NCBI GenBank assembly: GCA_021816965.1 | Contig: JAKAWU010000011.1 | Location: 1 to 32,718 of the forward strand | DNA: 32,718 bases | Reading direction: 5' to 3' | From: Thermoplasmata archaeon | GTDB lineage: Archaea > Thermoplasmatota > Thermoplasmata > Thermoplasmatales > Thermoplasmataceae | Part shown: piece by piece, positions 18,072 to 32,718 of the stretch | Layout: every line of letters begins with the position of its first letter | How positions within the stretch are numbered: the stretch's first letter is position 1 | Translations under genes and position numbers: made by a program | The notes under the pieces: generated by a model | Told to the model about the DNA's origin: nothing | Seen by the model: the letters and a program-made list of their open reading frames with translations, nothing else | Databases searched by the model: none

Positions 18072-20861
18072 TCATATTTTAAAAATTCTCTTCAAGAGCG
18101 GTACAACTCCCTTCCTGATTCCGACAGAAATTCTCTTCCTGAATCCTATGATTGTCAGTGCGGATGAACTCCCTCCACCAATTCCCACGGTTGTTCCAAG
18201 TACAGCCTCCGATCCTACCATATTCTTTGAAGGTACTGCTGTGCCTGTTATTGAAGGATTTGGAGTGAATATTATTGACTGGGATACATTCCCTCCGTTG
18301 ACTGTTACCGTTCCATTGCTAGGTGATGCTTCGAAGCTGTTGTAGAGTTCTGTCGAATAAACCGAGAAAGTGTATGTCCCATTTGGTTCCATGAAAGTTA
18401 TTGTGGAATTTGAGGAGGATTTTGAGACATCACTAAGTGTAACCGTCCATTGTGAACCGGGTGGGAGTCCTGTTTCACTGAATGTAACGTTGTATTTTGT
18501 CTGAACAAAATTTACATTTACCGTCGAAGATTTGTTTTGAACAAGGATACTTCCGGAACTGGATGTTGCATGATACCCTCCTGAAGAATGTATTGTGTAT
18601 TCATACAGACCGTTTACTACAAGGAAGGTGATTGCATTGGAATTTGATGATTGTGTGATTCCATTGAAATTCACATACCACGTGTATCCTTGTGGGAGGC
18701 TGTTTTCATCAAATGTCACAGCATATTGTTGGGATGTAGTGAACTGAATCTGTATCGTATAAGTATTTGTTGAGCTAACTGCAATATTTCCACCTGAAGG
18801 ATTGGAGATATATCCATTTGGATTTGCCACGCTGTATTTGTATGTTCCATTCAGTTCCTCATAAATTACAGAGGTTCCATCCGTTGTGTGGGAAATGCCT
18901 GCCATAGAAATTCCCCATACCGTTCCAGCACGAAGTCCTGTCTCGGTGAAAGTGATCAGGTGTTCATAGGTGGAATAGAAGTCTATATTCACGGTGGTTT
19001 CAGAACCATTTACTGTGAATCTACCTGAATTATTCTTCGGTGAAAAATTTCCATTGGATGTTGACGTATTAAAATAATATGTTCCATTTGGAAGCACTGC
19101 GCTGATCAAATTGCTGTCTGTTTTCATTCCCATGAATCCGGAAATGTTCAGATACCATCCTGAATTTTTAGGAAGCCCGCTCTCCTTGAAGTATACTTTA
19201 TAGGAAACGAGTGAGTATATTACACTAATACTCGTATCTTTACTCAACTTGACAGTTCCAACCATTTTCGTCTGAGAATATTTACTGAAATGCGATATGG
19301 TGTAGCTGTATGTGCCATGAGGAAGGAAAAATGTTATCTCCTGGCCAACACTTGCAAGTGTTTCTGATCCAACGGTTACATTCCATTCAGTTCCTGCAGG
19401 AAGACCTTTTTCCAGAAATGAAAGCTCATAATAATTGGAAGCGTTGATGTTTTCAGCCTGGCCCTGTATGAGGCTTATCGTGTGCTGCCATACAAGAGTT
19501 CCCTTTGACATTATGGAAACTGTATAAATACCGGGAGCAACATTGATTGTAGCCTTACCTCCGGTAAAATTATAAGAGGATCCACCAATTAGTATTGTTC
19601 CGGTGTTCACAGGCGCTTCAATGGTGATACTGGAATACTGGGTTGAATTGTAACTCATGTGCAGTGATCCTTTTTTCCCCCCATAAATTTGATCTCCAAT
19701 GCTTCCATTATTCATCACTATATGCGATGTGGATGTTACATACGTTATGGATTCTCCAGTATCGCTTCCAAAATTGAACGCATTCGGGATATACTGATAG
19801 TTGTGCCCATTCCAGTACATTAGCTTCATGAACATGTTTGTAGCTGGCCCTGAACTTGTGTACAAACCATCACCAAGACCCCCAAGTGTCAGTTCAGCGT
19901 CCCAATATAGCCCCAACGGGTTCATCTGGTATCCGTCGACCACATACCTGTAGAAAGTGCTTACATTCTTCGCAAAGATAAACACTGGCGTGTCGTATGT
20001 CACCCAACCAAAACCGTCTTTGTATTGGAATATGACCTGTGGCATGCCTGAATTCATCCTTGAGAGAACTCTGAAATCAATGCTTGAAGGATAATTCATG
20101 GAGATGTCATTCCCCTTTGTTGTTTTGCTTGGAGCATATGAATATACCCCTGTACCAAGGAATGTACTCACGGAACCGTTTCCCTGCAGGGTATTTGACT
20201 GCATTCCTGCGTTGGGTGAACTGAAATTCCAGATATTATTCACGAAGCATACACAAGCAGCAGAGGTTGCATTGTTAGGTGTCACAGAAACAACATTCTG
20301 CACCCAGTAGTCGTAAAGATGTCCTGAATTGACGAAAGAGAATTGAACATTCAACTGCATTGTCATTCCGAGTTGGTTTCCGAGTTCCTCACCTATTGGT
20401 ACGACCACGTTTCCTGAACCGTTGACCGCTGCATTGGGAAGCGTTCCACCTGCAGTTCCGTTAAGTTCCAGTCTTATGATGTTAACTTTGCCTTCGAATG
20501 AACTTGTGTTGTAAAAATATGGTGACCCATTACTGCCTATTCCAAAATCGGAAATACCTACAGGTGCAGGTTCATTCTGATAATACTGATATGGGTTTAC
20601 TCCTGCCTGATTTCCCGTGGGACTCATCTGGTAACCGGATATAGATCCTAATCCAGAATTAACGGAATTCGTTTTTTCGTTGTGAACTATCGGTGAAACC
20701 CCTGAATATATACCTAAAGATGGAAGAAACACCATGGATGTAAGTATCATGATACTTGCAACGAATACCACAATCCCAGCACCTCTTGACTTTTCGGACT
20801 CACTCCTGTTTTTCCTCTTATTTATTTTTCCTGGCGTTTCCCTCTTTTTATTGTTTTCCAT
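18072..20861 (-). CDS. Thermopsin family (A5) acid protease with C-terminal repeats
   Basis: A secreted, probably membrane-attached acid protease of 929 residues. The N-terminus is a basic cytoplasmic stretch and one hydrophobic segment (about 28-50). The thermopsin domain (about 90-420) is recognised by EPAPVGISDFGIG, the YDYWVQNVVSV segment, VNNIWNFSSPNAGM, DGFGWVTYDTPVFIF, VVDGYQMNPLGLYWDAELTLGG and YWNGHNYQYIPNAFNFGSDT; each closely follows Sulfolobus thermopsin as I recall it. Five beta-type repeats of about 75 residues follow (475-868). A hydrophobic Gly/Ser-rich segment and a cationic end LLKRIFKI complete the protein. The ATG at 20861 is chosen because TATATA at 20885-20890 is 26 bp upstream. 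In-frame ATGs at 20873 and 20933 are alternatives. Its upstream region shares a motif with the S53 protease gene. Confidence 0.9.
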   Translation of the reverse strand: MENNKKRETPGKINKRKNRSESEKSRGAGIVVFVASIMILTSMVFLPSLGIYSGVSPIVHNEKTNSVNSGLGSISGYQMSPTGNQAGVNPYQYYQNEPAPVGISDFGIGSNGSPYFYNTSSFEGKVNIIRLELNGTAGGTLPNAAVNGSGNVVVPIGEELGNQLGMTMQLNVQFSFVNSGHLYDYWVQNVVSVTPNNATSAACVCFVNNIWNFSSPNAGMQSNTLQGNGSVSTFLGTGVYSYAPSKTTKGNDISMNYPSSIDFRVLSRMNSGMPQVIFQYKDGFGWVTYDTPVFIFAKNVSTFYRYVVDGYQMNPLGLYWDAELTLGGLGDGLYTSSGPATNMFMKLMYWNGHNYQYIPNAFNFGSDTGESITYVTSTSHIVMNNGSIGDQIYGGKKGSLHMSYNSTQYSSITIEAPVNTGTILIGGSSYNFTGGKATINVAPGIYTVSIMSKGTLVWQHTISLIQGQAENINASNYYELSFLEKGLPAGTEWNVTVGSETLASVGQEITFFLPHGTYSYTISHFSKYSQTKMVGTVKLSKDTSISVIYSLVSYKVYFKESGLPKNSGWYLNISGFMGMKTDSNLISAVLPNGTYYFNTSTSNGNFSPKNNSGRFTVNGSETTVNIDFYSTYEHLITFTETGLRAGTVWGISMAGISHTTDGTSVIYEELNGTYKYSVANPNGYISNPSGGNIAVSSTNTYTIQIQFTTSQQYAVTFDENSLPQGYTWYVNFNGITQSSNSNAITFLVVNGLYEYTIHSSGGYHATSSSGSILVQNKSSTVNVNFVQTKYNVTFSETGLPPGSQWTVTLSDVSKSSSNSTITFMEPNGTYTFSVYSTELYNSFEASPSNGTVTVNGGNVSQSIIFTPNPSITGTAVPSKNMVGSEAVLGTTVGIGGGSSSALTIIGFRKRISVGIRKGVVPLLKRIFKI
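18260..19440 (-). repeat. Five tandem ~75-residue extracellular repeats in the thermopsin
   Basis: Each unit begins with a strand like YxVTFxExGLPxGTxW, continues with a turn around NGTYxYTV and ends in GxxxVxxxxxxVxF. They are degenerate protein repeats, not recent DNA duplications. The same unit is found in the S53 protease and the membrane protein downstream. Confidence 0.8.
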
Positions 20862-20884
20862 ATAAATTGCCATATTGAAATGAA

Positions 20885-20930
20885 TATATACGGAAATAAG
20901 TAAAAGTGCATGTTCAAGATAAACACACAA
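20885..20930 (-). promoter_or_regulatory. Thermopsin promoter with shared upstream motif
   Basis: TATATA (20885-20890) is the likely TATA box. Upstream of it, at 20912-20930 on the plus strand, lies GTTCAAGATAAACACACAA. The form GTTCA-N5-AACACACAA recurs exactly upstream of the S53 protease gene. GTTCA-AGA-TAAAC is itself a near palindrome, as expected for a dimeric regulator site. Confidence 0.5.
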
Positions 20931-21014
20931 CAATGCCAGGATAGCTCCTAAATGCGATACTTATTCTGTTCTTATCCCTGGTATTGGAGCATCACAGTAT
21001 TCGTTTTCTTCCGT

Positions 21015-21063: not shown

Positions 21064-21891
21064 TTGTCCGATAACTTTTCAGAAGAATTGACTGAATATC
21101 TTAAAATGCTTGGAATAGACCAGGAAGTGGCCCTGATATACCTTACTCTGCTTAGAAAAGGAGCGAGCACCGCGGGGAATCTCTCTAAAGCATTTCCTCT
21201 TGACAGGGCAAAAATTTACAGGGACCTGAAAACGCTTCAATCTCTCAATCTTGTTGAAGTAGTCGGAGGGACGCCGTTGAGATTCCAGGCTGTTGATTTT
21301 GAAGCAGCCATCGAAACCATAATTAGGAGCAGAGAAGATCATATAACTCAGATCAAGAACCAGAAAGAGGGCATCATAGCAAAATATTCTGAGCAATTGA
21401 GGCCAAGAGAGGAAAACAGTGATGTTTCCCTGCATATGAGATTTCTGGAAGGGATTGACTCAGTCATTACAGGAATAAATTCGATGATTGAAAAAGCTGA
21501 CATTAGTATAAACCTGTTTCTTGACAGAAGAAACCTGATGAGAATATATTCGCATCATTCCATAATTTATCTCTCCCGTAAATTGAATGAGGGCGTGAAT
21601 GTGAAAGTGTTGATTCCAGAGAGTGAGAGCATTAGCGAACTCGTGGAGGATTTCATTAGAAATTTTGAAGTCCGGGTAAGCAATATGAATGAAACTTTCA
21701 GCTATATAACTACAGATTCTAAAGCCATATTTCTCATACTTGATTCTGAAAGTTACGTAAGTGGAAAAGCAATGAACAAGGCTGTAAATGGTATTCTCAT
21801 TGACAGTTCAGAATCAACAAAACGCTTCAATTCAATGTTTGAATTTTTCTGGAATATTTCAGAAAACGTGGAATCTAAATTTTCAATGTAA
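21064..21891 (+). CDS. TrmB-family transcriptional regulator
   Basis: A 275-residue regulator with an N-terminal winged helix (residues 10-75: YLKMLGIDQEVALIYLTLLRKG, given in part, then RAKIYRDLKTLQSLNLVEVVGG). A short coiled linker follows (about 90-120), and then a C-terminal PLD-like ligand domain (about 125-270) typical of TrmB and related sugar-responsive regulators. The start is probably TTG at 21064. In-frame CTG at 21061 is the only earlier option, since a stop lies at 21055. An internal ATG at 21106 would cut into the HTH. It is flanked by the divergent thermopsin gene and the convergent S53 gene, so local control of these proteases is plausible. The effector is unknown. Confidence 0.85.
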   Translation: MSDNFSEELTEYLKMLGIDQEVALIYLTLLRKGASTAGNLSKAFPLDRAKIYRDLKTLQSLNLVEVVGGTPLRFQAVDFEAAIETIIRSREDHITQIKNQKEGIIAKYSEQLRPREENSDVSLHMRFLEGIDSVITGINSMIEKADISINLFLDRRNLMRIYSHHSIIYLSRKLNEGVNVKVLIPESESISELVEDFIRNFEVRVSNMNETFSYITTDSKAIFLILDSESYVSGKAMNKAVNGILIDSSESTKRFNSMFEFFWNISENVESKFSM

Positions 21892-21919: not shown

Positions 21920-24900
21920 TCAGAGTTTGAACAGATGTTTCAACCCATGAATTATCCTTTTCCCAAGTTTTCTAGCAACCACATAAGTGGAACTTGCGGT
22001 TCCTGCTGTTCCTCCTGTGGCAAATATGGCAGTGGTTACCGGCGAGGAATGTGTTTGTGTTCCGTTTGCAGAGATAAAGGTTACAGAGGACTGTGCATCT
22101 GTTCCATGCACAGAAATTGTCACGGTTTTCACTGCCCTGCTATATCCACTTTCACCAACTACATTCACAATGTATGTCCCATTCATGAGGTTCACATATA
22201 TGTGCTGTGTGCTTGAATTGTATTCTATGCCATTAATGATCACATGCCATACAGTTCCCTGTAAAAGCCCATTTTCAGAGAGCACCAGAGTATACAGCAC
22301 AGGATGGAAGTTTATGGATATGTTCTGTGCGCCGGATGCCATAGAGAAATTTCCACCTGTTCCATGGTAATTTCCATCAGGCGTCACAATGCTGTATGTG
22401 TATTTCCCAAATTCCAGTATGGCGGAGATGCTTCTTCCAGTTGTTGTGTATGTTTTACCGTTTGAGAGATGTACCTGCCATGGGGTTCCATATGGGAGGC
22501 TGTTCTCCTGGAATGTGGCCGTTCCTGAATTTGACTTGCTGTAAAATGTTATATGCTCATTTATGTTGCTGTTGCTCACATCGATTGAACCACTGGATGT
22601 GGATGGAACGTAGGAACTGTCAGATGTGCTCACAGTGTAACTGTACACTCCATCCTGCAGAGTGAAGCTTATGGAACCAGGCGAAACCGAGCTGCCATGA
22701 TCTCCATTGCTTAGGTTTACATACCATGCCTCTCCTGATGGAAGACCTGATTCAGTGAATTTAGCTGTGAAATATATCTGTGTGAATTCAATGTTTACTG
22801 TGATTGATTTTCCATTGACATTTATGAATCCGTTTGTTATGTTAGGTTCATAGCTGCTGTCCGTGGATGCAATGGTGAAACCGTATGTTCCATTCTGCAG
22901 TTCATAATTGATTGTTGAACCCTGTGAAACTTCTTGCATGCCCGTCAGGTTGGCATACCATGAAGTTCCAGAAGGAAGGCCGGATTCATGGAACATTGCA
23001 GTGAATGTTACCGGGTTGAAGAATAATGATATTCCCTGTGCAGATGATGTGACTGTGAATGTGGATGATGTAATGGCCGGTGCAAACAACTTGTCTGTGG
23101 TTGCAAATGTATACTCATAGGTTCCGGGGATGAGGTATATGGCAAACTGATCACCTGTTGAATTCAGTGAGAAAGTATTTCCCGAAACTCCGGTGATGTT
23201 CACATACCATCTGGATCCTGCTGGAAGGCCTGATTCTGTGAAAATTGTTTTGTAATTATGGGTGGTTTCTACGATTGTGCTCATTGCCTTGTTGGCTCTT
23301 CCCTGAAGATCCATGCCTGTTATGTTGAAGTGATCCGTTCCATATGGCACCTGTAGATCATTTATCACAAAGGTATAATTACTGTTTTTGGAGACCGTGT
23401 AACCGATCGATTCAGTTCCAAGGAAACCAGAAACCTGCTTCAGATCATATGAACCAAATGGACTCTGAACATCTGAGGATACGTAATAGTTGCTGTTTTC
23501 CATGAATACTTTTGGTGGTGTTATGGAAACCGGATTCAGTGAAGGAAGTGTGAGAGATATAGGATAATAGGATCCTGTCTGCGGAGAAATTGAGTATCCG
23601 ACGTTTGTTCCGCCCTCACTGGCAGTGTACCAGCTGACAATCATTGTTATTATGCTTCCCTTCCTGAGTTTGGAGAGGAGTGAGTGCATGGATACGTTGT
23701 AATCCTGTACGGAATGTGTAAGGCTCAGATTGTGTGTTGTGGAGTTTTCACCTATGAGTATGCCGTTATCAAGCACCATTATGCTCACGGTTACAGGAAC
23801 AGCACCCGGTAGGCTTCCAGAAAGTGGTGATGAAAGCGAAAGATAAAAGTTTGCATACAGTGGATCCGCCTGGGAGAGATAGAGTGAAGTGGCAAGCGGG
23901 AGCGACGAATGGAATGACCATGCGGATGTTCCCAGGACTGGAACGAGATAACTTGAATTGAAGTTACCCTGATTCGCCGGAAACTCTGTTGTCATCTGGA
24001 AGCTTGACGCTCCTCCTGTTGCCTGCGAGTCCACATGCTGCGCATACAGACTCACATAAGCAGGCTCATTGCGAAGTACCGATGATGGAGGCACGTTATA
24101 GAATGTACCAAACAGCGTGACTCCATTGCTGAATGGAATGCCTGTTCCGACTTCAATCTCTCCTGTGGTTCCCGAATATAACACACCTATTGGATTGGTA
24201 AATGTGTATGGTGGTGAAATACCTGTCAGAGGAATAGAACTCTCGAAAGATTTTACGGATGGCATGTTCATGAAAACACCGTTCTTATCGTACTGTAGAT
24301 CCCCTATGGCAACTGGCCCAAAGGAATTCAATGGTGTGTAATCTCCGTAAATTGAGATGCCAATGTATGGCAGATTATTTCCCGTACTGTTTGCATCACT
24401 GGAAAAGGTGTCAACTGTCTTTCCATTTATTTCCATTGACCAGGTGTCAGGAGCAGTTCTCACAATAGAATATGTGTTGAATGTTCCGTTTGTTCCAGCA
24501 CTCCCCGGTGAACCTGTTATGTATCCCTCGCTTCCGAATACGGAGGTCGCAGGAATGATGGCGTAGAACCATGAGCCTTCAGGATTTGACATGCTGGAAA
24601 CATATCCCAACATTATCTGCGTACCATCGGAAAGTGTCATGTTGATGAAGGCTGATGCTGTGCCGTACATGGAACCAGGCAGGATCGTCTGTATCCTGGC
24701 AGATATTCCTGATGCATGAGTTGTGTTGTAATCACCCTTTATGCCTGCAGAATAAGTCATCAGGGATAGTTCCTTGGTAAGGAACCCCGTATTGGGTGAA
24801 CCCAATCCTGTCACGGGACTCCATCCAGGTCCTGCGTCAAATAGCCCGTTAGGCCCGTTATATCCATAAATGACGTCATAGAACGCCTTATGGTACACGG

Positions 24901-26734
24901 GTGAATTGAAAATGGCATAAAAGGTTGGATTAAGATAACCAAGCATGTTCCCATTCCCATAATCCAGTTCATATGAATCCGCAGTAGCTATGACACCTGC
25001 CCATTGCGGGGATGCAAAGCTTGTGCCTCCAAATGCATATGATCCTGCGGTTACTCCATTGAACACAAACAGATTTCCTGCAAACATTGCATTTGCCGAA
25101 ACATCAGGTATTCCTCTCCTATACGCGTATTTCCCTGAAGTTGGAATGCCCTGTCCCGTCTGCCATGATGGTTTTGAGTACAGTATGCTGTAACCTCCAC
25201 CTGTGTAACCATCCCATGCTGTTTCATTGCTCATATTTGTCGGATTGAATGTTTCGTTTACGCCGGGGGGCCCGTTCAATGCGCTCTGGACACCAGTGTT
25301 CAATGTTCCATTCATGAATATAGTTGTCCCTCCCACTCCAAGAACATATGGATCATTGCTGGGCCACATGACTGATCTTGGAACGCTGGAATCGTATCCT
25401 GCGGAACCCTGATCTCCTGATGCTGCCATTACAGTGATGCCTGTTGCTGCTGCTTCCTTTGCAAATGGGTGGAAATACTGCGCCTCGTTTCCAATTTCTG
25501 GTTCAGGTGCACCCCAGCTGTTAGATATCACATTTGCAAGCTGGTTTGTGATAGTGAACACCAGTGACTGAGTGAGAGTATAGTCTGCATCCGGTGAAAT
25601 TACTGAAACAAGATTTGCATTGGGCGATGTGGCGTGAGCCATCTGGAAATCAAGGGCAGATTCAACTTCCCACAAATCCACTACAGATCCGTATGCCGTT
25701 GATACTGGAGAAGGAGTTCCGTAGGGGTAAATGGTCTGGTAAGAATTTGTGGTTGGCATATTGTATAATGTATCGTATTGAGTGAGATCAGAAAGCGAGG
25801 TTGGATCCCCAAACGCGTCCGTGACTGCGATTGTTATGTAATTGCCGTTGACTCCTGATGAGATCAATTTTGTCTCGTTATAGGCGATCTGCAGTGCCTG
25901 AGGTGTGTATGGAGGTTGTGGATTCAGCGCTCCAGTACCGCTATTAGGTGCATTCATCAACTGGGAAAACTCATTCGATATGTTTGTTCCAAGTGCTGGA
26001 TTTAAGGTAAGGCCCGGTGTGAAATATGGAAAGTTGTTGAATCCTATGGCTGTGTTTATGTAACTGGAAAATACAGACGGTACACTTATGTTTTGAAGAT
26101 TGAAATAGAAATCTCCCAAATTTGTGCTGAACATTGCAAAGGTTGTGTTGAATGCTTTCTGAAGATTCAAGAGGCTGCCTGAAACTTCCATGTATCCCCT
26201 GTCATTCTCCTTGACGACTGTCAGGCCCATGGATGAATAGTATGAAGCTATCTGGTCATATACCGTGCTGTTCACTTCAAATGAGTCAACAAACTGTGAA
26301 TGAGTCAGATAGTGCCTGTAAATTGGTGATGCGGGGTTAGAAACTTGTGCCAGATAGGCGTTCAGGAATGTGTTATGCTGAAGCTTCATTCCCATGAAAA
26401 TATTCGTTGTCATGTTGAGGTTTATGGTGCTGAGCTTGACTGCTCCCGGTGGCATATATGGCAATGTACCGGAAATCATGTAATCTGGGCTTGATAATGC
26501 TGCCTGATATAGGGCTGCATTTTTTACAATATTCCCATGCACGTTGGGAGATGCTGTATTCCCCTGTGCCCCTGTATTGATCACAACAGCGAATGCTCCC
26601 AATACCATGAGCGATACAACAACAATGCTGAATATCACCTTCAATGGCGAATGCTCTTCCATCATGCCAGTTTCTGAAATATTTCGTAGATCTTTTCGGT
26701 TTTTCTCTTTTACGTTATCTTTCATCTGGATCAT
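21920..26734 (-). CDS. S53 (sedolisin/kumamolisin-like) acid protease with C-terminal repeats
   Basis: A 1604-residue secreted serine-carboxyl protease. A basic N-terminus and one hydrophobic segment (31-53) form the signal or anchor. The activation pro-domain follows (about 95-235; HYLTHSQFVDSF and the ATG-free FTPGL region). The catalytic domain shows E358 and D362 in WEVESALDFQMAHA, D441 in AASGDQGSAG and S572 in GGTSFASPQWAG. The calcium site is YDVIYGYNGPNG to GWSPVTGLGSPN (619-647). All four key residues are present, so it should be active at acid pH. A long beta-rich region (660-1150), five repeats like those of the thermopsin (1153-1555) and a cationic end GLKHLFKL follow. TACATAAA near 26757 supports the ATG at 26734 as a leaderless start. 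Confidence 0.93.
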   Translation of the reverse strand: MIQMKDNVKEKNRKDLRNISETGMMEEHSPLKVIFSIVVVSLMVLGAFAVVINTGAQGNTASPNVHGNIVKNAALYQAALSSPDYMISGTLPYMPPGAVKLSTINLNMTTNIFMGMKLQHNTFLNAYLAQVSNPASPIYRHYLTHSQFVDSFEVNSTVYDQIASYYSSMGLTVVKENDRGYMEVSGSLLNLQKAFNTTFAMFSTNLGDFYFNLQNISVPSVFSSYINTAIGFNNFPYFTPGLTLNPALGTNISNEFSQLMNAPNSGTGALNPQPPYTPQALQIAYNETKLISSGVNGNYITIAVTDAFGDPTSLSDLTQYDTLYNMPTTNSYQTIYPYGTPSPVSTAYGSVVDLWEVESALDFQMAHATSPNANLVSVISPDADYTLTQSLVFTITNQLANVISNSWGAPEPEIGNEAQYFHPFAKEAAATGITVMAASGDQGSAGYDSSVPRSVMWPSNDPYVLGVGGTTIFMNGTLNTGVQSALNGPPGVNETFNPTNMSNETAWDGYTGGGYSILYSKPSWQTGQGIPTSGKYAYRRGIPDVSANAMFAGNLFVFNGVTAGSYAFGGTSFASPQWAGVIATADSYELDYGNGNMLGYLNPTFYAIFNSPVYHKAFYDVIYGYNGPNGLFDAGPGWSPVTGLGSPNTGFLTKELSLMTYSAGIKGDYNTTHASGISARIQTILPGSMYGTASAFINMTLSDGTQIMLGYVSSMSNPEGSWFYAIIPATSVFGSEGYITGSPGSAGTNGTFNTYSIVRTAPDTWSMEINGKTVDTFSSDANSTGNNLPYIGISIYGDYTPLNSFGPVAIGDLQYDKNGVFMNMPSVKSFESSIPLTGISPPYTFTNPIGVLYSGTTGEIEVGTGIPFSNGVTLFGTFYNVPPSSVLRNEPAYVSLYAQHVDSQATGGASSFQMTTEFPANQGNFNSSYLVPVLGTSAWSFHSSLPLATSLYLSQADPLYANFYLSLSSPLSGSLPGAVPVTVSIMVLDNGILIGENSTTHNLSLTHSVQDYNVSMHSLLSKLRKGSIITMIVSWYTASEGGTNVGYSISPQTGSYYPISLTLPSLNPVSITPPKVFMENSNYYVSSDVQSPFGSYDLKQVSGFLGTESIGYTVSKNSNYTFVINDLQVPYGTDHFNITGMDLQGRANKAMSTIVETTHNYKTIFTESGLPAGSRWYVNITGVSGNTFSLNSTGDQFAIYLIPGTYEYTFATTDKLFAPAITSSTFTVTSSAQGISLFFNPVTFTAMFHESGLPSGTSWYANLTGMQEVSQGSTINYELQNGTYGFTIASTDSSYEPNITNGFINVNGKSITVNIEFTQIYFTAKFTESGLPSGEAWYVNLSNGDHGSSVSPGSISFTLQDGVYSYTVSTSDSSYVPSTSSGSIDVSNSNINEHITFYSKSNSGTATFQENSLPYGTPWQVHLSNGKTYTTTGRSISAILEFGKYTYSIVTPDGNYHGTGGNFSMASGAQNISINFHPVLYTLVLSENGLLQGTVWHVIINGIEYNSSTQHIYVNLMNGTYIVNVVGESGYSRAVKTVTISVHGTDAQSSVTFISANGTQTHSSPVTTAIFATGGTAGTASSTYVVARKLGKRIIHGLKHLFKL
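22063..23265 (-). repeat. Five tandem ~75-residue extracellular repeats in the S53 protease
   Basis: The units start with IFTESGLPAGSRWYVNITG, MFHESGLPSGTSWYANLTG, KFTESGLPSGEAWYVNLSN, TFQENSLPYGTPWQVHLSN and VLSENGLLQGTVWHVIING. The consensus matches the thermopsin repeats. They probably act as stalk or substrate- or surface-binding beta domains. Confidence 0.8.
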
Positions 26735-26944: not shown

Positions 26945-29617
26945 ATGTTAAGCTATGCGTTTCATGTAAATGTATATATGAAGTATTTTGCTGTGTTGCT
27001 GGTGGGTTTGCTGATAATTTCCTTTACCCCATACATGATTCCAGTTGATCAGAATTCTGTGAATCAGTCCCCTGTGGCAAGCAATTCCATAAACAGCAGG
27101 ATGAATTCCACAGTCTCTTCCATGAATTTCGGAACAGGAAATTCCTCTTACAGTGGAGGATTGTGGAATCTAACAGGCAAAAGTGTCGGAACACTTCCGT
27201 CGAATAATACCAGCGTTTCCATATCAACTCTCAGCAAGTCCGGAACCTATATATTCAAACCGGGAAGTACTATCTCTTCCACGGGCATAGTGGGAAAAAA
27301 TGAGTCCCTCACAAATTTAACCGGATGGACTTCCCAGAACAATTTCAATTTTCTCCTCAATGGCGGTAAGTGGACATTCAATTTTTACCTAAATGTTTCC
27401 GCAACAACCAATGGAGGGATCGGATATGCAGGTGTTGCTGCATACCTCTATAATTCTACTTCCGGAAATGCTAGCAGATTCCTGATTTCGCAGAACAATA
27501 GCAACATCTTTTCTCTTTCCCCAGGAGTTTATTCTTTTGTTGGAATTTCCCCAAATTTAACATCGATCAATGGCACAGGAAAATACCTCATAATTGAGCC
27601 ATTTGTTAATATAACTTCTGTACCAACACTGATAACCTCTCTTGCAACAACCACAACATTGACTTCCCTGAACATATATTTCGGTATTGGCTCACGGGAG
27701 GGCGGTGGCTCCAACCTGTCCTATCCATTTTACGGAAATTTGAATGGGACTGTGACCCCTCAATCGTCCACTGTGCTTGTGGACGGGATACAGGTCTCGA
27801 CCCACTCAGGAACCTTCAACAGAACACTGTTTCCTGGAAATTACAATGTATCGGTAACCAGCCCCTATTACGCGAACTTCACTGAGAAGATCGTTATTGA
27901 ATCGGGGCACACCATATCGATTAATGCTGTGCTGAAAAAACTCTACAATCTTACAGTAACAGTTTCAGGCCTCTCTCCAAATACATCATGGAACCTTTCC
28001 GTTAATGGAACGGAATACGTGTTAAAAAATAGTACCTTTGTCAGGCAGGTTGTAAATGGAAGCTATTCCCTGAATGTGCCTGGTTTCATTTATGTTTCAA
28101 AGTGGGAAAGATATTACGCACAGTTTCATAACCACACCCTGAATATTAATGGCAACAGCCAGAATTACACCTTCAGATACGAGAAGGAGTATTATCTTAA
28201 TGTTAGTTCAAATTCCATTTCCCGTGGAAATGTTACCCCAATATCTGGCTGGTACCAAGCCGGATTGATCATCAACATATCTGAAAAATCCTATACCGGT
28301 TTCACATTCAGATTGTGGACAGGCACAGGAAATGGAAGTTACTCCGGCCCCAATGGGACAGGAACCATAATCCTGGATTCCCCTGTTAACGAGACTGCCT
28401 GGTTTTATCCTCTGGGTATTGTTCTGTATAAAATTTATTTCGATGAACTTGGACTTCCCGCGGGTACTTACTGGACCGTTTCCCTGAACAATACGCTTCA
28501 ACAGTCAAATTCCTCTCAGATGTACTTTGAGGAACCAAATGGAACATACAGCTATGAAACATACCATGCTAATGGATACGTATCGAACAGATCATACGGT
28601 AATGTTTCAGTTAACGGAAATTCTTCAATTATAACCTTATCTTTCAGCAAGCCAGAATTCCTGGTACAATTTGTTGAAAGCGGCCTGCCAAACTCAATGT
28701 TTCCATGGATAATAACGATTCAGAACGTAACCAGTTCATCAAGGAACAGTACCATAGAATTATATTTGGAAAATGGCACTTACAAATATTCTGTTTACAA
28801 TGTTACAGGATATTCCATCGCACCTCACAGCGGATACATCATGGTGAATGGAAGTGGGGCCACACAGTTAATCAGTTTCAACCTAATATTTTACAATATA
28901 ACATTCATAAATGAGAATTATTCCAACAATTCATTCTGGGGAGTTATTATTTATAACAGTTCAGGCAAAGCCCTGTATGAGGCAAACAATTCCAAATATT
29001 TAACCATACAACTTCCTGCCGGGGAATACAATTACTCTGCATTTGAGGGAAATAACATCAGAACATCAAATGCCTCCCTCATTCCGCAGTTTCAGAGCGG
29101 CCCGATCCTCATAACGTTCAATTCTCCTGCAAAACCGCCATTTTCCGTATATATGTTCCTTCAGTATCCAATCATCCTGATTTTCCCAATCTTGATCATT
29201 GCTGCTTTGATCTCATACCTGTATTTGCGAAGGAAATTGAAATCATGGGATGATGAATTCATCATATATCATGACGGAAGGCTGCTGAGGCATTATACCA
29301 GAAGGATGAATCCAGATGTAGATCAGGATCTGCTTTCTGCAAGCCTGATGGCAATACAGAATGCCATAAAGGAGGCGTCAGGAACCAGAAAGCTTGATTA
29401 TATCAATATAAAGGGTGCAGGAATAAACATAATCAATGGAAGATATATTTCGGTAGCATTGATGGGCAAAAATGAAATACGCAGGAGAGCGAATCTGAAG
29501 ATCAGGAGGGCCATAAAAAAATTAGAGGCTGAGAACAGGGCGGCCCTGATTAAATGGAAAGGGGATCAGGCAAGCCTGAACTGGTTAGATAAATACAGGG
29601 ACAGCCTTCGCCCATGA
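26945..29617 (+). CDS. Large single-pass surface protein with cytoplasmic longin/roadblock-like domain
   Basis: An 890-residue membrane protein rich in N, S, T and N-x-S/T sites, so probably glycosylated. A signal peptide or anchor covers 12-30. Then come an unassigned beta region (40-250), a PEGA-like domain (about 265-327) and one degenerate repeat (330-410). A bacterial-repeat-like unit with GWYQAGLIINIS and WTGTGNGSYSGP (about 417-490) follows, and then three ~75-residue repeats (493-725) as in the neighbouring proteases. A transmembrane segment (about 733-757) is followed by positive charges. The cytoplasmic part (760-890), starting DDEFIIYHDGRLLRHYTRRM and containing LLSASLMAIQNAIKEA, resembles small longin/roadblock-type domains. 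It ends 5 bp from the convergent small-GTPase gene. The start may be the ATG at 26945 or at 26978 (MKYFAVLL). Confidence 0.8.
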   Translation: MLSYAFHVNVYMKYFAVLLVGLLIISFTPYMIPVDQNSVNQSPVASNSINSRMNSTVSSMNFGTGNSSYSGGLWNLTGKSVGTLPSNNTSVSISTLSKSGTYIFKPGSTISSTGIVGKNESLTNLTGWTSQNNFNFLLNGGKWTFNFYLNVSATTNGGIGYAGVAAYLYNSTSGNASRFLISQNNSNIFSLSPGVYSFVGISPNLTSINGTGKYLIIEPFVNITSVPTLITSLATTTTLTSLNIYFGIGSREGGGSNLSYPFYGNLNGTVTPQSSTVLVDGIQVSTHSGTFNRTLFPGNYNVSVTSPYYANFTEKIVIESGHTISINAVLKKLYNLTVTVSGLSPNTSWNLSVNGTEYVLKNSTFVRQVVNGSYSLNVPGFIYVSKWERYYAQFHNHTLNINGNSQNYTFRYEKEYYLNVSSNSISRGNVTPISGWYQAGLIINISEKSYTGFTFRLWTGTGNGSYSGPNGTGTIILDSPVNETAWFYPLGIVLYKIYFDELGLPAGTYWTVSLNNTLQQSNSSQMYFEEPNGTYSYETYHANGYVSNRSYGNVSVNGNSSIITLSFSKPEFLVQFVESGLPNSMFPWIITIQNVTSSSRNSTIELYLENGTYKYSVYNVTGYSIAPHSGYIMVNGSGATQLISFNLIFYNITFINENYSNNSFWGVIIYNSSGKALYEANNSKYLTIQLPAGEYNYSAFEGNNIRTSNASLIPQFQSGPILITFNSPAKPPFSVYMFLQYPIILIFPILIIAALISYLYLRRKLKSWDDEFIIYHDGRLLRHYTRRMNPDVDQDLLSASLMAIQNAIKEASGTRKLDYINIKGAGINIINGRYISVALMGKNEIRRRANLKIRRAIKKLEAENRAALIKWKGDQASLNWLDKYRDSLRP
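28420..29130 (+). repeat. Three ~75-residue extracellular repeats in the membrane protein
   Basis: The units begin IYFDELGLPAGTYWTVSLNN, VQFVESGLPNSMFPWIITIQ and ITFINENYSNNSFWGVIIYN. The first is closest to the protease repeats and the third is strongly diverged. They lie directly before the transmembrane segment and so form its membrane-proximal stalk. Confidence 0.7.
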
Positions 29618-29622
29618 ATATA

Positions 29623-30471
29623 CTACACCTGACTTTTCAATCTCTTCCATTCACCGGAAATTCTCAAAATTTTTGAAGGGCTGATACTATTCTCCAGAAG
29701 TTTATCGGATACTATTCTCATGAATTCGTCCAGCTCTTCGGGAATTATATCTTCACTGTCCAGACTGCTCTCCTTATAGCATTCCTGTAGAATTTCCTGA
29801 GCCTGTGACTTTTCATCAAATAGATTCAACACATCCAAGACGATTTTGTCAAATACTGCCTCTAAGGATTTTTCCTCTTTTTCCTGCGTTTTTTGCGAAT
29901 CAGGTTTCGATCTTCTTGGGATTTCTGTTTCTGGCAAATTAGCAAGGGCAACTGAAACAGATTCAAATATTTCATTTACTCCATAGGCCTCCTTGCTGCT
30001 GGTCAGGAAGATCTTGTCTTTGGTTATGGCTGCACCATATCTGGCTGCCATGGAAATAAATGAAAAAACAGCTTCCTCATACCTCTCCTTTTCTATTAGA
30101 TCCACCTTATTCAGGGAAAAATATATGAATGACGTATCCACAGTTTCCGCAATGCTTGGTAACCAGAAGTCAACTGCAGATTTCATGGAATTTTCATTTG
30201 TCACATCCGATATTATAATCACTGCATCCACATTCTCAAGGGCAAGCCTCCGGACTTCACCATGCAGATGTGAGCCAAAAACATCCCATACCATCAGGGT
30301 CATTTCCACCTGATCACTTATTGTTCTCATGGGTTTTTTTCCGATATTGACCCCTATGGTTTCACTGTAGCTGTCACTGAAGGCATTCTTCAAAAACCTG
30401 GAAAAAATACTCGTTTTACCGACTCTCACATCCCCTACCAGAGCGATTTTTCTTATGACTCGTGGATGCAT
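29623..30471 (-). CDS. Ras/Rab-like small GTPase with helical C-terminal extension
   Basis: From ATG 30471 the protein has 282 residues. All G motifs are present: P-loop GDVRVGKTS (13-21), switch I threonine T38 in SETIGVNIG, switch II WDVFGS with D63 and G66, NKVD at 121-124 and TSSK at 157-160. Position 67, where Ras has the catalytic glutamine, is serine, so intrinsic hydrolysis may be slow. A charged linker (182-203) leads to about 80 helical residues of unknown function. The TIGVNIG switch I is Rab/Ras-like rather than Era- or Obg-like. TTTATAT at 30505-30511 (minus strand) would start a transcript near 30483, where an in-frame GTG (VAIEMHPR) could be a leaderless start. Its neighbour ends in a longin/roadblock-like domain, a fold that often contacts small GTPases. 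Confidence 0.88.
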   Translation of the reverse strand: MHPRVIRKIALVGDVRVGKTSIFSRFLKNAFSDSYSETIGVNIGKKPMRTISDQVEMTLMVWDVFGSHLHGEVRRLALENVDAVIIISDVTNENSMKSAVDFWLPSIAETVDTSFIYFSLNKVDLIEKERYEEAVFSFISMAARYGAAITKDKIFLTSSKEAYGVNEIFESVSVALANLPETEIPRRSKPDSQKTQEKEEKSLEAVFDKIVLDVLNLFDEKSQAQEILQECYKESSLDSEDIIPEELDEFMRIVSDKLLENSISPSKILRISGEWKRLKSQV

Positions 30472-30504
30472 CTCGATTGCCACATGAAGATATTGCAGGA
30501 TACG

Positions 30505-30511
30505 ATATAAA
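30505..30511 (-). promoter_or_regulatory. TATA box of the small GTPase gene
   Basis: TTTATAT on the minus strand has its centre at about 30508. The expected transcription start is at about 30482, on the in-frame GTG at 30483 and 11-12 nt before the ATG at 30471. The box therefore excludes the longer N-terminal frame running up to 30594. The remaining divergent spacer to 30701 shows nothing further. Confidence 0.45.
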
Positions 30512-30671
30512 TAAAATCTGTTTCTGTATACTGAGCTCTGTATTTTATCTATTGCCATGATACAGTGTAACATAGTATTTTTATAATATAGCATTAATAA
30601 GTACCATGTTCACTGAAATAATATATGGCAATCTCTATTTTCTTACATATTTTCTATGTGATGTTTCGACA

Positions 30672-30680: not shown

Positions 30681-30701
30681 CCTTGAGATTATTTAATTGT
30701 G

Positions 30702-31691
30702 ATGGTCGAAAGAGACTTATTTGGATCCGATATTTCGGAAATAACCGGATTAGACCCCGGTAGCATAGGAAAAACAATGATCATAGATCGCCTTTCACAT
30801 CACACAGAAATACTGCAAAATGTGAGCCATTTCATAACATACGTGAAGATTGGATGGGGCCTTCCATTCTTAATGAACAGGACAGCACTGCTGAAGAGGC
30901 TTAATGACATAAAATCTATGGGACTTGGTGTTTCCAATGGCGGAACATTCCTGGAAACATGTTCAATGAAGGGCAAATTTGAAAAAGGTTTAAAATCAAT
31001 CATAGAAGCAGGATTCACACATATTGAGATCAGCGAAGGATTATACGAATTGACAAGACGGGAAAAAAAGATGGCAATGGAAACGGCGATGTCGTCAAAC
31101 GTCAAACTTGTCATGGAGGTGGGAAAGAAAGGGAGAGAAAACCAGCTCAGTTTGATTGACACTATTTACAAGATACAGGAATCCATGGATTATTCTCCAG
31201 AAACCATAATCCTTGAAGGAAGAGAGAACGGACGGGATGTTGGAATCTATGACCATGAAGGTAACATAAAATGGGATTGGGTGGAAAAAATACTTGAAAC
31301 TGTTAATCTGGAGTCCTTAATGTTTGAGGCCCCACTTGAAAAACAGCAGACAGAACTGATCACGAGACTTGGAAGAGGTGTGAATCTTGGAAATGTGCAG
31401 ATTGCGTCTGCAGCATCAGTCACGGCACAGAGATTTGGACTTGCAGGAGAGAACGTGTTTATAAACGACCAGGTCAGGGAATGCAATGGGAGTCCTGCAA
31501 CAAAATTTGTATATCACATTATAAGGAATGCCATTTCTGCTGATCAGACATCACTGATGAACATCACGGGGCTCAACAGGAGAACGGTTCAGAATGCCAT
31601 ATCTGATCTGATAGATATGAAACTCATAAAAGAGGTGTATGATCCGAGAGACATGAGAAGAAAAACTTACTCATGCATCAATAGGAGTTGA
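30702..31691 (+). CDS. Phosphosulfolactate synthase (ComA)-like protein fused to a winged helix
   Basis: 329 residues. Residues 15-255 follow the ComA TIM-barrel family: ITYVKIGWGLP (45-55), NGGTFLETC (79-87), HIEISEGLYEL (107-117), LVMEVGKKG with K142, IILEGRENGRDVGIYD (169-184), LMFEAPLEKQQ (206-216) and VNLGNV (227-232). ComA adds sulfite to phosphoenolpyruvate in coenzyme M synthesis. The last barrel segment, normally LRxGLRxDT, reads AQRFGLAGENV here, so the substrate may differ. Residues 268-329 form a winged helix (SLMNITGLNRRTVQNAISDL, MKLIKEVYD and a basic wing RDMRRKTY). This fusion suggests DNA binding tied to a metabolite. No other coenzyme M gene is in view. It is convergent with sepF, 4 bp apart. 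Confidence 0.82.
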   Translation: MVERDLFGSDISEITGLDPGSIGKTMIIDRLSHHTEILQNVSHFITYVKIGWGLPFLMNRTALLKRLNDIKSMGLGVSNGGTFLETCSMKGKFEKGLKSIIEAGFTHIEISEGLYELTRREKKMAMETAMSSNVKLVMEVGKKGRENQLSLIDTIYKIQESMDYSPETIILEGRENGRDVGIYDHEGNIKWDWVEKILETVNLESLMFEAPLEKQQTELITRLGRGVNLGNVQIASAASVTAQRFGLAGENVFINDQVRECNGSPATKFVYHIIRNAISADQTSLMNITGLNRRTVQNAISDLIDMKLIKEVYDPRDMRRKTYSCINRS

Positions 31692-31695
31692 CTGA

Positions 31696-32067
31696 TCAGA
31701 GATCATACCTTACTTTTTTCTTATCCAGGAAAACATCTTCAGGCACTATAACGTAGTACTTCTGCCCTAACTTTGCTACCTGCAGTTTTTCATGAAGGTT
31801 GGAAATTTCCTCGCTCAGCCTGGATGAAGCTATGGAGTCGCTTGAAGCGTTTGATGTGTCAAGTATGACCACGTTCCCATCATAGACAAAGCTCAGCGCT
31901 TTCTTCACATGTTCAGGCTTGTCTACCTCAACAACCTTCAGTGATCTTGCGTAAGAGGTTTTACCCAGCCCAAAATCATACTCTGCAAGGTTTATGAAAT
32001 CCAGCGTTTCAACTCCACTATCTGGCCCGATCTCCTTTTTCTGATCCTTCTTCCCTATTTTCACCAT
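31696..32067 (-). CDS. sepF: Archaeal SepF-like cell division protein
   Basis: A 123-residue protein with a charged N-terminal tail and a SepF-like domain. The domain runs SYARSLKVVEVDKPEHVKKA, then YDGNVVILDTSNAS, SRLSEEISNLHEKLQVAKLG and YYVIVPEDVFLDKKKVRYDL. Archaeal SepF anchors FtsZ to the membrane at the division site. The usual short amphipathic N-terminal membrane helix is not obvious here. The start at 32067 is supported by GAGGT 8 nt upstream (minus strand, 32076-32080). A longer frame from 32109 (MHQGTHN) would overlap the upstream gene by 28 bp. It lies 14 bp after the ACT-domain gene and is probably co-transcribed with it. The assignment rests on pattern recognition of the C-terminal half. 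Confidence 0.72.
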   Translation of the reverse strand: MVKIGKKDQKKEIGPDSGVETLDFINLAEYDFGLGKTSYARSLKVVEVDKPEHVKKALSFVYDGNVVILDTSNASSDSIASSRLSEEISNLHEKLQVAKLGQKYYVIVPEDVFLDKKKVRYDL

Positions 32068-32075
32068 TTTCAGGT

Positions 32076-32080
32076 ACCTC
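32076..32080 (-). promoter_or_regulatory. Shine-Dalgarno site deciding the sepF start
   Basis: GAGGT on the minus strand, 8 nt before the ATG at 32067. As an internal operon gene, sepF would need such a site, unlike the leaderless first genes of this window. Confidence 0.5.
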
Positions 32081-32081
32081 G

Positions 32082-32600
32082 CTAAAGTATTATGAGTCCC
32101 TTGATGCATGGACTCTGTTTTATTTTTGATATTATTTCCGGGCTTAGAGGCGTATCTGTGACTATCTTTGCCCTTGGCTCTTCTGTTATTATCGGGTCCT
32201 GTACTATGACCTGCCTTATTCCTACTCCACTGTCTGCTATGATCTTCAGAGCATTGCTGATAATTCCAGGTTTTGTGGCATCCTCAGGTATTATTTCTAT
32301 GACTCCGAGATTCATGAGCTTCGAGCTTGCACTGCTCAGATCAGCAATAGCCGTAAGTTTGGAGAAGAAGCCAAGAAGTGTTTTGTCGTTCACAATCTTG
32401 GTCACGACCTGTATGACAACTCTCTTATCCACCCCTACTGACATTGCAAGGGAGTTTGACCTCACTTCCACTGACCCGCAGAATATGCCGAATTCATTGT
32501 CATATTTTTCCTTCACTGAGAAACCGTAATTCATAAGGTATTTGACCACTGTAAGTTGTGAATGATATTTTCCAAAGGCATTGTTAATTACATCCCACAT
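32082..32600 (-). CDS. HTH and ACT-domain regulator (COG1707-like)
   Basis: 172 residues. The N-terminal part (MWDVINNAFGKYHSQLTVV, then a segment ending in CGSVEV) followed by SNSLAMSVGVDKRVVIQVVTKI forms an HTH module. The C-terminal 80 residues (LGVIEIIPEDATKPGIISNALKI, shown in part, to VQDPIITEEPRAKIVTD) form an ACT-type ligand domain. This is the layout of a broadly conserved archaeal family thought to sense amino acids; the ligand is unknown. The start at 32600 is preferred because homologues, as I recall, begin MWEE and because GGTGG lies just upstream. ATGs at 32621 and 32633 would overlap the preceding gene. It starts 10 bp after the upstream stop, in one operon with sepF. Confidence 0.78.
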   Translation of the reverse strand: MWDVINNAFGKYHSQLTVVKYLMNYGFSVKEKYDNEFGIFCGSVEVRSNSLAMSVGVDKRVVIQVVTKIVNDKTLLGFFSKLTAIADLSSASSKLMNLGVIEIIPEDATKPGIISNALKIIADSGVGIRQVIVQDPIITEEPRAKIVTDTPLSPEIISKIKQSPCIKGLIIL

Positions 32601-32610
32601 GTTTCCACCG

Positions 32611-32718
32611 TTAAGTTCCATCCGAAATCCCATCTTCCGACACCTGTATCACCGCTTCACCCTCAGGGAGATATGGTGAATCAATCAGCCTTGCTATTCT
32701 TTTTCCCGCCTTTCCCTT
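32611..32718 (-). CDS. C-terminal end of an unidentified gene, cut by the window edge
   Basis: The frame open from base 32718 to a TAA at 32611-32613 encodes 35 residues, including [19 protein letters not shown] and ending SEDGISDGT. The frame is uninterrupted, ends 10 bp before the ACT-domain gene and lies on the same strand, so it is very likely the upstream gene of that operon. The fragment is too short for me to name the family. Confidence 0.6.

Follow-up and report, generated by a model that had tools for sequence, protein, structure and literature searches.

Two convergent genes of a Thermoplasmata archaeon (Thermoplasmatales, Thermoplasmataceae), here proposed to encode a signalling module, lie within a window of 32,718 nucleotides (contig JAKAWU010000011.1, positions 1 to 32,718), the whole stretch of DNA analysed. 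They encode a receptor-like membrane protein and a Ras/Rab-like small GTPase, and their stops are separated by 5 bp, in agreement with a preliminary description made from the letters alone. The membrane protein (26945-29617, plus strand; 890 amino acids) comprises a signal or transmembrane segment, an ectodomain, a single transmembrane segment and a cytoplasmic longin-type domain, as judged from its open reading frame (ORF), hydropathy and its orthologues, which span 865-943 amino acids in six relatives. Hydropathy places the N-terminal signal peptide or transmembrane segment at about residues 12-34 (26978-27046) and the second membrane segment at about residues 735-761 (29147-29227), followed by the motif RRKLK; with 128 residues inside (29231-29614), the proposed layout of about 700 extracellular residues, one transmembrane segment and some 130 cytoplasmic residues is correct. 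The ectodomain contains a PEGA-like domain at residues 271-332 (27755-27940; Pfam PF08308, 4.8e-5, 23.6 bits against a cut-off of 20.8) and, by pattern scan, two F-x-E-x-G-L-P...W repeats at residues 499 and 576 (28439-28708). It carries 52 N-glycosylation sequons (N-x-S/T) compared with 19.1 +/- 3.7 in shuffled sequences. No kinase domain was found in the membrane protein.

The GTPase gene (29623-30471, minus strand; 282 amino acids) occupies part of an open frame that extends over 29623-30594. Its start was set at 30471 since all homologues in the alignment begin with MHPR-, which confirms the end of the gene assumed in the preliminary description. The protein matches Pfam Ras at 2.2e-21, Foldseek matches it to Rab8 and Rab5 (1e-11), and the G1 (GDVRVGKTS), G3 (DVFG), G4 (NKVD) and G5 (TSSK) motifs are present, with G1, G4 and G5 conserved. 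The equivalent of Ras Gln61 is absent: G3 reads DVFGSH in the window protein and those closest to it, DVMGG in two others, and DVLGQ in most of the remaining, distant members, among them the Aciduliprofundum-like relatives. The GTPase may work without Gln61, perhaps requiring its partner for hydrolysis. About 100 extra residues at the C-terminus are predicted by AlphaFold2 to form a low-confidence linker (residues 183-199) and four helices (residues 203-281; 29629-29865). The C-terminus proper (...WKRLKSQV) is cysteine-free and lacks the prenylation cysteines of the Rab family proper. The initial view of a complete Ras/Rab-like GTPase stands with two points that it missed, the extension and the lack of a Gln61 equivalent. 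In related genomes, the extension is shared by GTPases whose partners are receptors, STAND proteins or V4R proteins, while the other Ras-like GTPases of those genomes are of about 160-190 amino acids. The window genome encodes one further clear Ras-like GTPase, which is of the short type and also occurs in genomes without the pair.

The cytoplasmic domain was characterised with an alignment of 30 homologues, seven of them taken from inside STAND-type nucleoside triphosphatases (NTPases), which served as input to AlphaFold2; in Pfam, NCBIfam and the Protein Data Bank (PDB), no entry matched its sequence at a curated threshold. The resulting model (predicted local distance difference test score, pLDDT, 82; predicted template modelling score, pTM, 0.76) has longin topology, beta-beta-alpha-beta-beta-beta-alpha-alpha, with strands at 8-13, 18-23, 57-60, 63-69 and 73-79, and helices at 32-50, 85-107 and 113-122. 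A TRR/helix-1 patch is conserved in the domain, as is W109-x-G111 (domain numbering). Longins are set apart from roadblocks by the absence of an N-terminal helix and the presence of an extra C-terminal helix (PMC10933270), and both features are seen in the model. The predicted topology favours a longin rather than a roadblock type, and a plain roadblock identity was rejected on these grounds. Every one of the 50 PDB matches listed by Foldseek is of longin, roadblock or adaptor type, including AP sigma/mu, zeta-COP, COPI, MglB, Ragulator, TRAPP, MON1-CCZ1 and BLOC-3, with expect values (E) to solved longins from 3.8e-5 at best to 5e-4 and TM-scores of about 0.5-0.6. Among weak Pfam matches of the 30 members, Fuz_longin_1 ranks first (9/30, best 0.0032, short of the curated longin threshold) and Robl_LC7 second (4/30, best 0.023, below its cut-off).

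An hhalign comparison of the domain profile with that of 29 archaeal roadblocks gave 88% with a score of 40.5 (E 2.8e-6 for one comparison); 40 column shuffles reached at most 0.56% and a score of at most 14.6, and a GTPase profile reached 1%. The alignment begins at roadblock column 37, past the N-terminal segment of the roadblocks. By profile homology, the domain is linked to the roadblock/LC7-longin superfamily, and the longin/roadblock-like character ascribed to it in the preliminary description holds in fold, structural matches and profile. No roadblock proteins are recognisable with Pfam Robl_LC7 in nine genomes of the window's family, the window genome included, and no relatives of the domain were found in viral contigs and plasmids.

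Conservation of the pair was assessed in 117 genomes of the order, about 77 of which belong to the window's family, many of them incomplete. The domain is present in 17 of the 117, and all 17 encode the GTPase. In the family of the window, a single set of seven genomes carries both, and no others have either the domain or the extended GTPase. The two genes are neighbours in all seven carriers, convergent in five and co-directional with the GTPase first in the remaining two, which belong to genus g11. In genus g24, which is Aciduliprofundum-like (its members are named as DHVE2 archaea) and in which the receptor ectodomains consist of PKD repeats, seven of eight genomes have receptor and GTPase genes that converge, their stops almost touching. 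The same genus has a second GTPase paralogue, whose gene converges on that of an NTPase-TPR protein with the longin-type domain (the two overlap or lie a few bases apart), and a third directly upstream of a V4R protein (PF02830, 3.8e-14), V4R being a relative of TRAPPC3/Bet3 (PMC10933270). In four genomes with both pair types, same-type GTPases are 71-74% identical between genomes, compared with 55% between the types within a genome. Receptor-linked and STAND-linked GTPases within one genus group by partner type rather than by genome, and it follows that partner and GTPase were duplicated together.

Adjacency is not confined to one strain; it is kept across genera, families and classes, sometimes in rearranged order. 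The initial reservation about a functional link between convergent genes is met by the co-inheritance of the pair, its co-directional versions and the parallel duplication of both partners, and a chance convergence of unrelated genes was rejected in view of co-inheritance and rearranged order. A further possibility is that the longin-type domain serves dimerisation in general and that its adjacency to the GTPase is a conserved gene order without functional meaning. Longin and roadblock folds do dimerise, and tandem copies of the domain occur in eight of 103 domain ORFs. However, orientation and order of the pair vary while adjacency stays, and mere gene-order inertia is disfavoured because adjacency persists through this reordering. 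Nor can such inertia alone account for the co-occurrence across 390 genomes described below, and we consider this explanation very improbable.

Individual loci are also of note. Three STAND/AAA_16 NTPase-TPR proteins (L069:113-3142, L066:9542-12577 and L065:120-3254) have the domain inside the NTPase region and are convergent with their own GTPase. In one genome (G016), a V4R protein (L062:8235-8798) lies immediately downstream of an extended GTPase (L062:7441-8244) and a divergent short GTPase adjoins, so that longin, V4R and Rab-like parts are found together in one non-Asgard archaeon.

On a phylum-wide scale, 390 Thermoplasmatota genomes were sampled and the GTPase was scored at E <= 1e-40; organism names came from a profile search with a narrower alignment, which is biased toward close relatives. 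The domain occurs in 52 genomes, many of which have at least 10 copies. Domain and GTPase are found together in 47 genomes, the domain alone in five, the GTPase alone in three and neither in 335 (Fisher test, 4e-51, uncorrected for phylogeny). At 100 domain loci outside the order, some of which come from sister genomes, a GTPase lies within 6 kb at 18, compared with 5.4 expected, and is the direct neighbour at 10, compared with about 1.2 expected. At L244 and L247, from a distant family of the phylum, convergent pairs lie 2 bp apart, and the membrane protein carries two tandem domains. A mirror-tree comparison of 28 pairs correlates domain and GTPase distances at r = 0.80, against a Mantel null maximum of 0.35. 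Among the 103 domain ORFs, a transmembrane segment directly precedes the domain in 49, and in 19 the domain sits inside a P-loop NTPase, inserted near residue 95-130.

Three loci (L217, L223 and L224, in genomes G305, G266 and G328) have a roadblock gene a few genes upstream of a PKD-longin receptor, with a P-loop kinase-like gene in between, an arrangement that might point to a roadblock-longin partnership. In a soil Thermoplasmata metagenome-assembled genome, the frame upstream of a receptor (L158:475-1632) apparently spans two tandem GTPases, the first in another frame. At L245 and L276, GTPases are fused to N-terminal TPR repeats and are divergent from longin-domain NTPase proteins.

Taken together, we infer with a probability of roughly two in three that the two genes form one signalling module, and that the cytoplasmic domain represents an undescribed longin family forming receptor-to-small-GTPase modules through direct binding, dimerisation and regulation. 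The receptor-to-GTPase module put forward in the preliminary description is supported by the fold, the conserved adjacency and the near-perfect co-occurrence, with direct contact between the proteins as the conjectural step. In such a module, the ectodomain would sense or anchor something extracellular, and the longin-type domain, probably dimeric, would provide a membrane platform that binds the neighbouring extended GTPase. The domain would then set the nucleotide state or the location of the GTPase, putatively as a guanine nucleotide exchange factor (GEF), a GTPase-activating protein (GAP) or an effector platform, by analogy with MglB acting on MglA and with the longins and roadblocks of TRAPP and Ragulator acting on Rab and Rag. 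Several points weigh against this proposal. The TM-scores to known structures are modest, the C-terminal extension of the GTPase has no known function, and at 82 of the 100 domain loci beyond the order no GTPase gene is found within 6 kb, which means that pairing is not obligatory. Moreover, some longins, such as those of SNAREs and of AP and COPI subunits, are not GTPase regulators.

The direction of signalling could also be reversed, with the domain acting as an effector or scaffold by which the GTP-loaded GTPase recruits or clusters the receptor, thereby organising surface proteins or secretion sites. The large, glycoprotein-like ectodomain and the secreted proteases encoded nearby would suit this role, and the lack of a Gln61 equivalent in the window GTPase could slow hydrolysis; longin folds are, in addition, found in AP, COPI and SNARE proteins that act downstream of GTPases (Foldseek; PMC4917890). 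The domain inserted in STAND NTPases, in contrast, looks more like a regulatory input, and we regard the effector role as rather unlikely, the foremost of the alternatives to a receptor that signals to the GTPase.

The pair is embedded in a wider gene cluster. A TrmB-like transcription regulator (21064-21891, plus strand; Pfam TrmB 5e-12) and a secreted S53 (sedolisin/kumamolisin-like) protease (21920-26734, minus strand; Pfam Pro-kuma_activ 5e-21, with GTSFASP and E-x-x-x-D motifs) lie upstream of the receptor gene. Across the 117 genomes, strong homologues of the TrmB-like gene are confined to all seven carriers and a single further genome; the S53 protease has strong homologues in six of the carriers and one weaker match elsewhere. 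The TrmB-like, S53, receptor and GTPase genes cluster in rearranged order among the carriers. The repeat type seen twice in the receptor ectodomain (FxExGLP...W) was found four times by pattern scan in the S53 protease, as ESGLP repeats. At the level of the family, the module is probably part of a cassette for extracellular protein use together with the S53 protease and the TrmB-like regulator. A thermopsin (18072-20933) is encoded near the S53 protease, both being secreted acid-protease types.

The nearly identical distribution of the TrmB-like and S53 genes in the window's family would also fit proteins that are not in contact at all, and whose genes belong to the same co-inherited island, linked by a common process or by transfer; that most domain genes elsewhere do not adjoin a GTPase is in keeping with this. 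In genus g24, however, neither the TrmB-like nor the S53 gene has a relative beside the pair and receptor and GTPase abut nonetheless, and the genes of STAND proteins bearing this domain directly adjoin a GTPase paralogue of their own. A shared island without contact is therefore improbable, more so than the effector role.

Longin or roadblock partners of small GTPases are a known kind of system, exemplified by MglA/B, conservons and Asgard proteins. In Myxococcus and Thermus, the Ras-like GTPase MglA is encoded with a longin/roadblock-fold partner, MglB, which is among the best Foldseek matches of the domain. MglB, however, is a roadblock that carries an N-terminal helix and occurs as a free, soluble protein, whereas the longin-like domain here is C-terminal to a transmembrane segment and a large ectodomain, and the GTPase differs from MglA in its C-terminal extension and in DxxG in G3. 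The extended GTPases fall outside a published census because their length exceeds 240 amino acids, above which sequences were omitted (PMC4316618). Actinobacterial conservons (CvnA-D) encode a membrane sensor, a roadblock and a small GTPase together and have been proposed to act as a G-protein-like system (PMC4316618, PMC13343842); their sensor kinase-like protein and roadblock are separate, whereas the longin-type domain here is fused to the membrane protein.

Longin folds, Rab-like GTPases and V4R/TRAPPC3-type proteins are also known from Asgard archaea, although in strain MK-D1 the GTPase genes are reported not to share operons, as a rule, with genes for roadblock, longin or TRAPPC3 proteins (PMC10933270). 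In Thermoplasmatota, by contrast, the pairing is conserved and receptor fusions prevail. A study that reports Rab-like GTPases from this broad group, namely from Aciduliprofundum and an archaeon of the Thermoplasmatales, mentions neither 'longin' nor 'roadblock' partners in its text (PMC4915359). The closest folds are those of the longin-based Rab GEFs TRAPP (Bet5/Trs23), MON1-CCZ1 and BLOC-3, in keeping with Fuz_longin_1 (FUZ/MON1/HPS1) as the top weak Pfam family. These are eukaryotic multisubunit complexes, in contrast to the archaeal proteins, which have no sequence match to them at a curated threshold. In the open-licence literature, we found no prior description of the domain in Thermoplasmatota, nor of a widespread family in this phylum that fuses the longin domain to transmembrane receptors and has dedicated, extended GTPases.

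A broader generalisation stands at about even odds, namely that Thermoplasmatota possess a whole class of transmembrane receptors that often bear PKD or other ectodomains, reach ten or more domain copies in some genomes and signal directly, via a cytoplasmic longin, to dedicated extended Rab-like GTPases, and that this GTPase family also serves STAND-TPR NTPases and V4R proteins. If true, this would constitute an archaeal receptor-small-GTPase signalling system outside Asgard, and a candidate answer to how archaeal surface receptors couple to the cell interior without two-component kinases. In eukaryotes, membrane trafficking and nutrient signalling depend on longin/roadblock platforms with Rab-type GTPases, whose archaeal origins have been discussed mostly via Asgard genomes; a large unannotated longin family tied to receptors and extended GTPases in Thermoplasmatota would broaden this picture. 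It also supplies defined cognate pairs, the genes of which overlap by a few bases in some cases, that are open to biochemistry without the need for Asgard cultures.

Two further regions of the window lie beyond the GTPase gene. A phosphosulfolactate synthase-like (ComA) protein (30699-31691) scores 200 bits compared with a curated equivalog cut-off of 280 and has a C-terminal winged-helix-like match; it is perhaps a regulator or a different enzyme. At 31696-32633, a SepF-like gene (22 bits, below cut-off) overlaps a TrpY-family regulator, and the same SepF-like/TrpY-family gene order recurs after the GTPase in one relative (G056).

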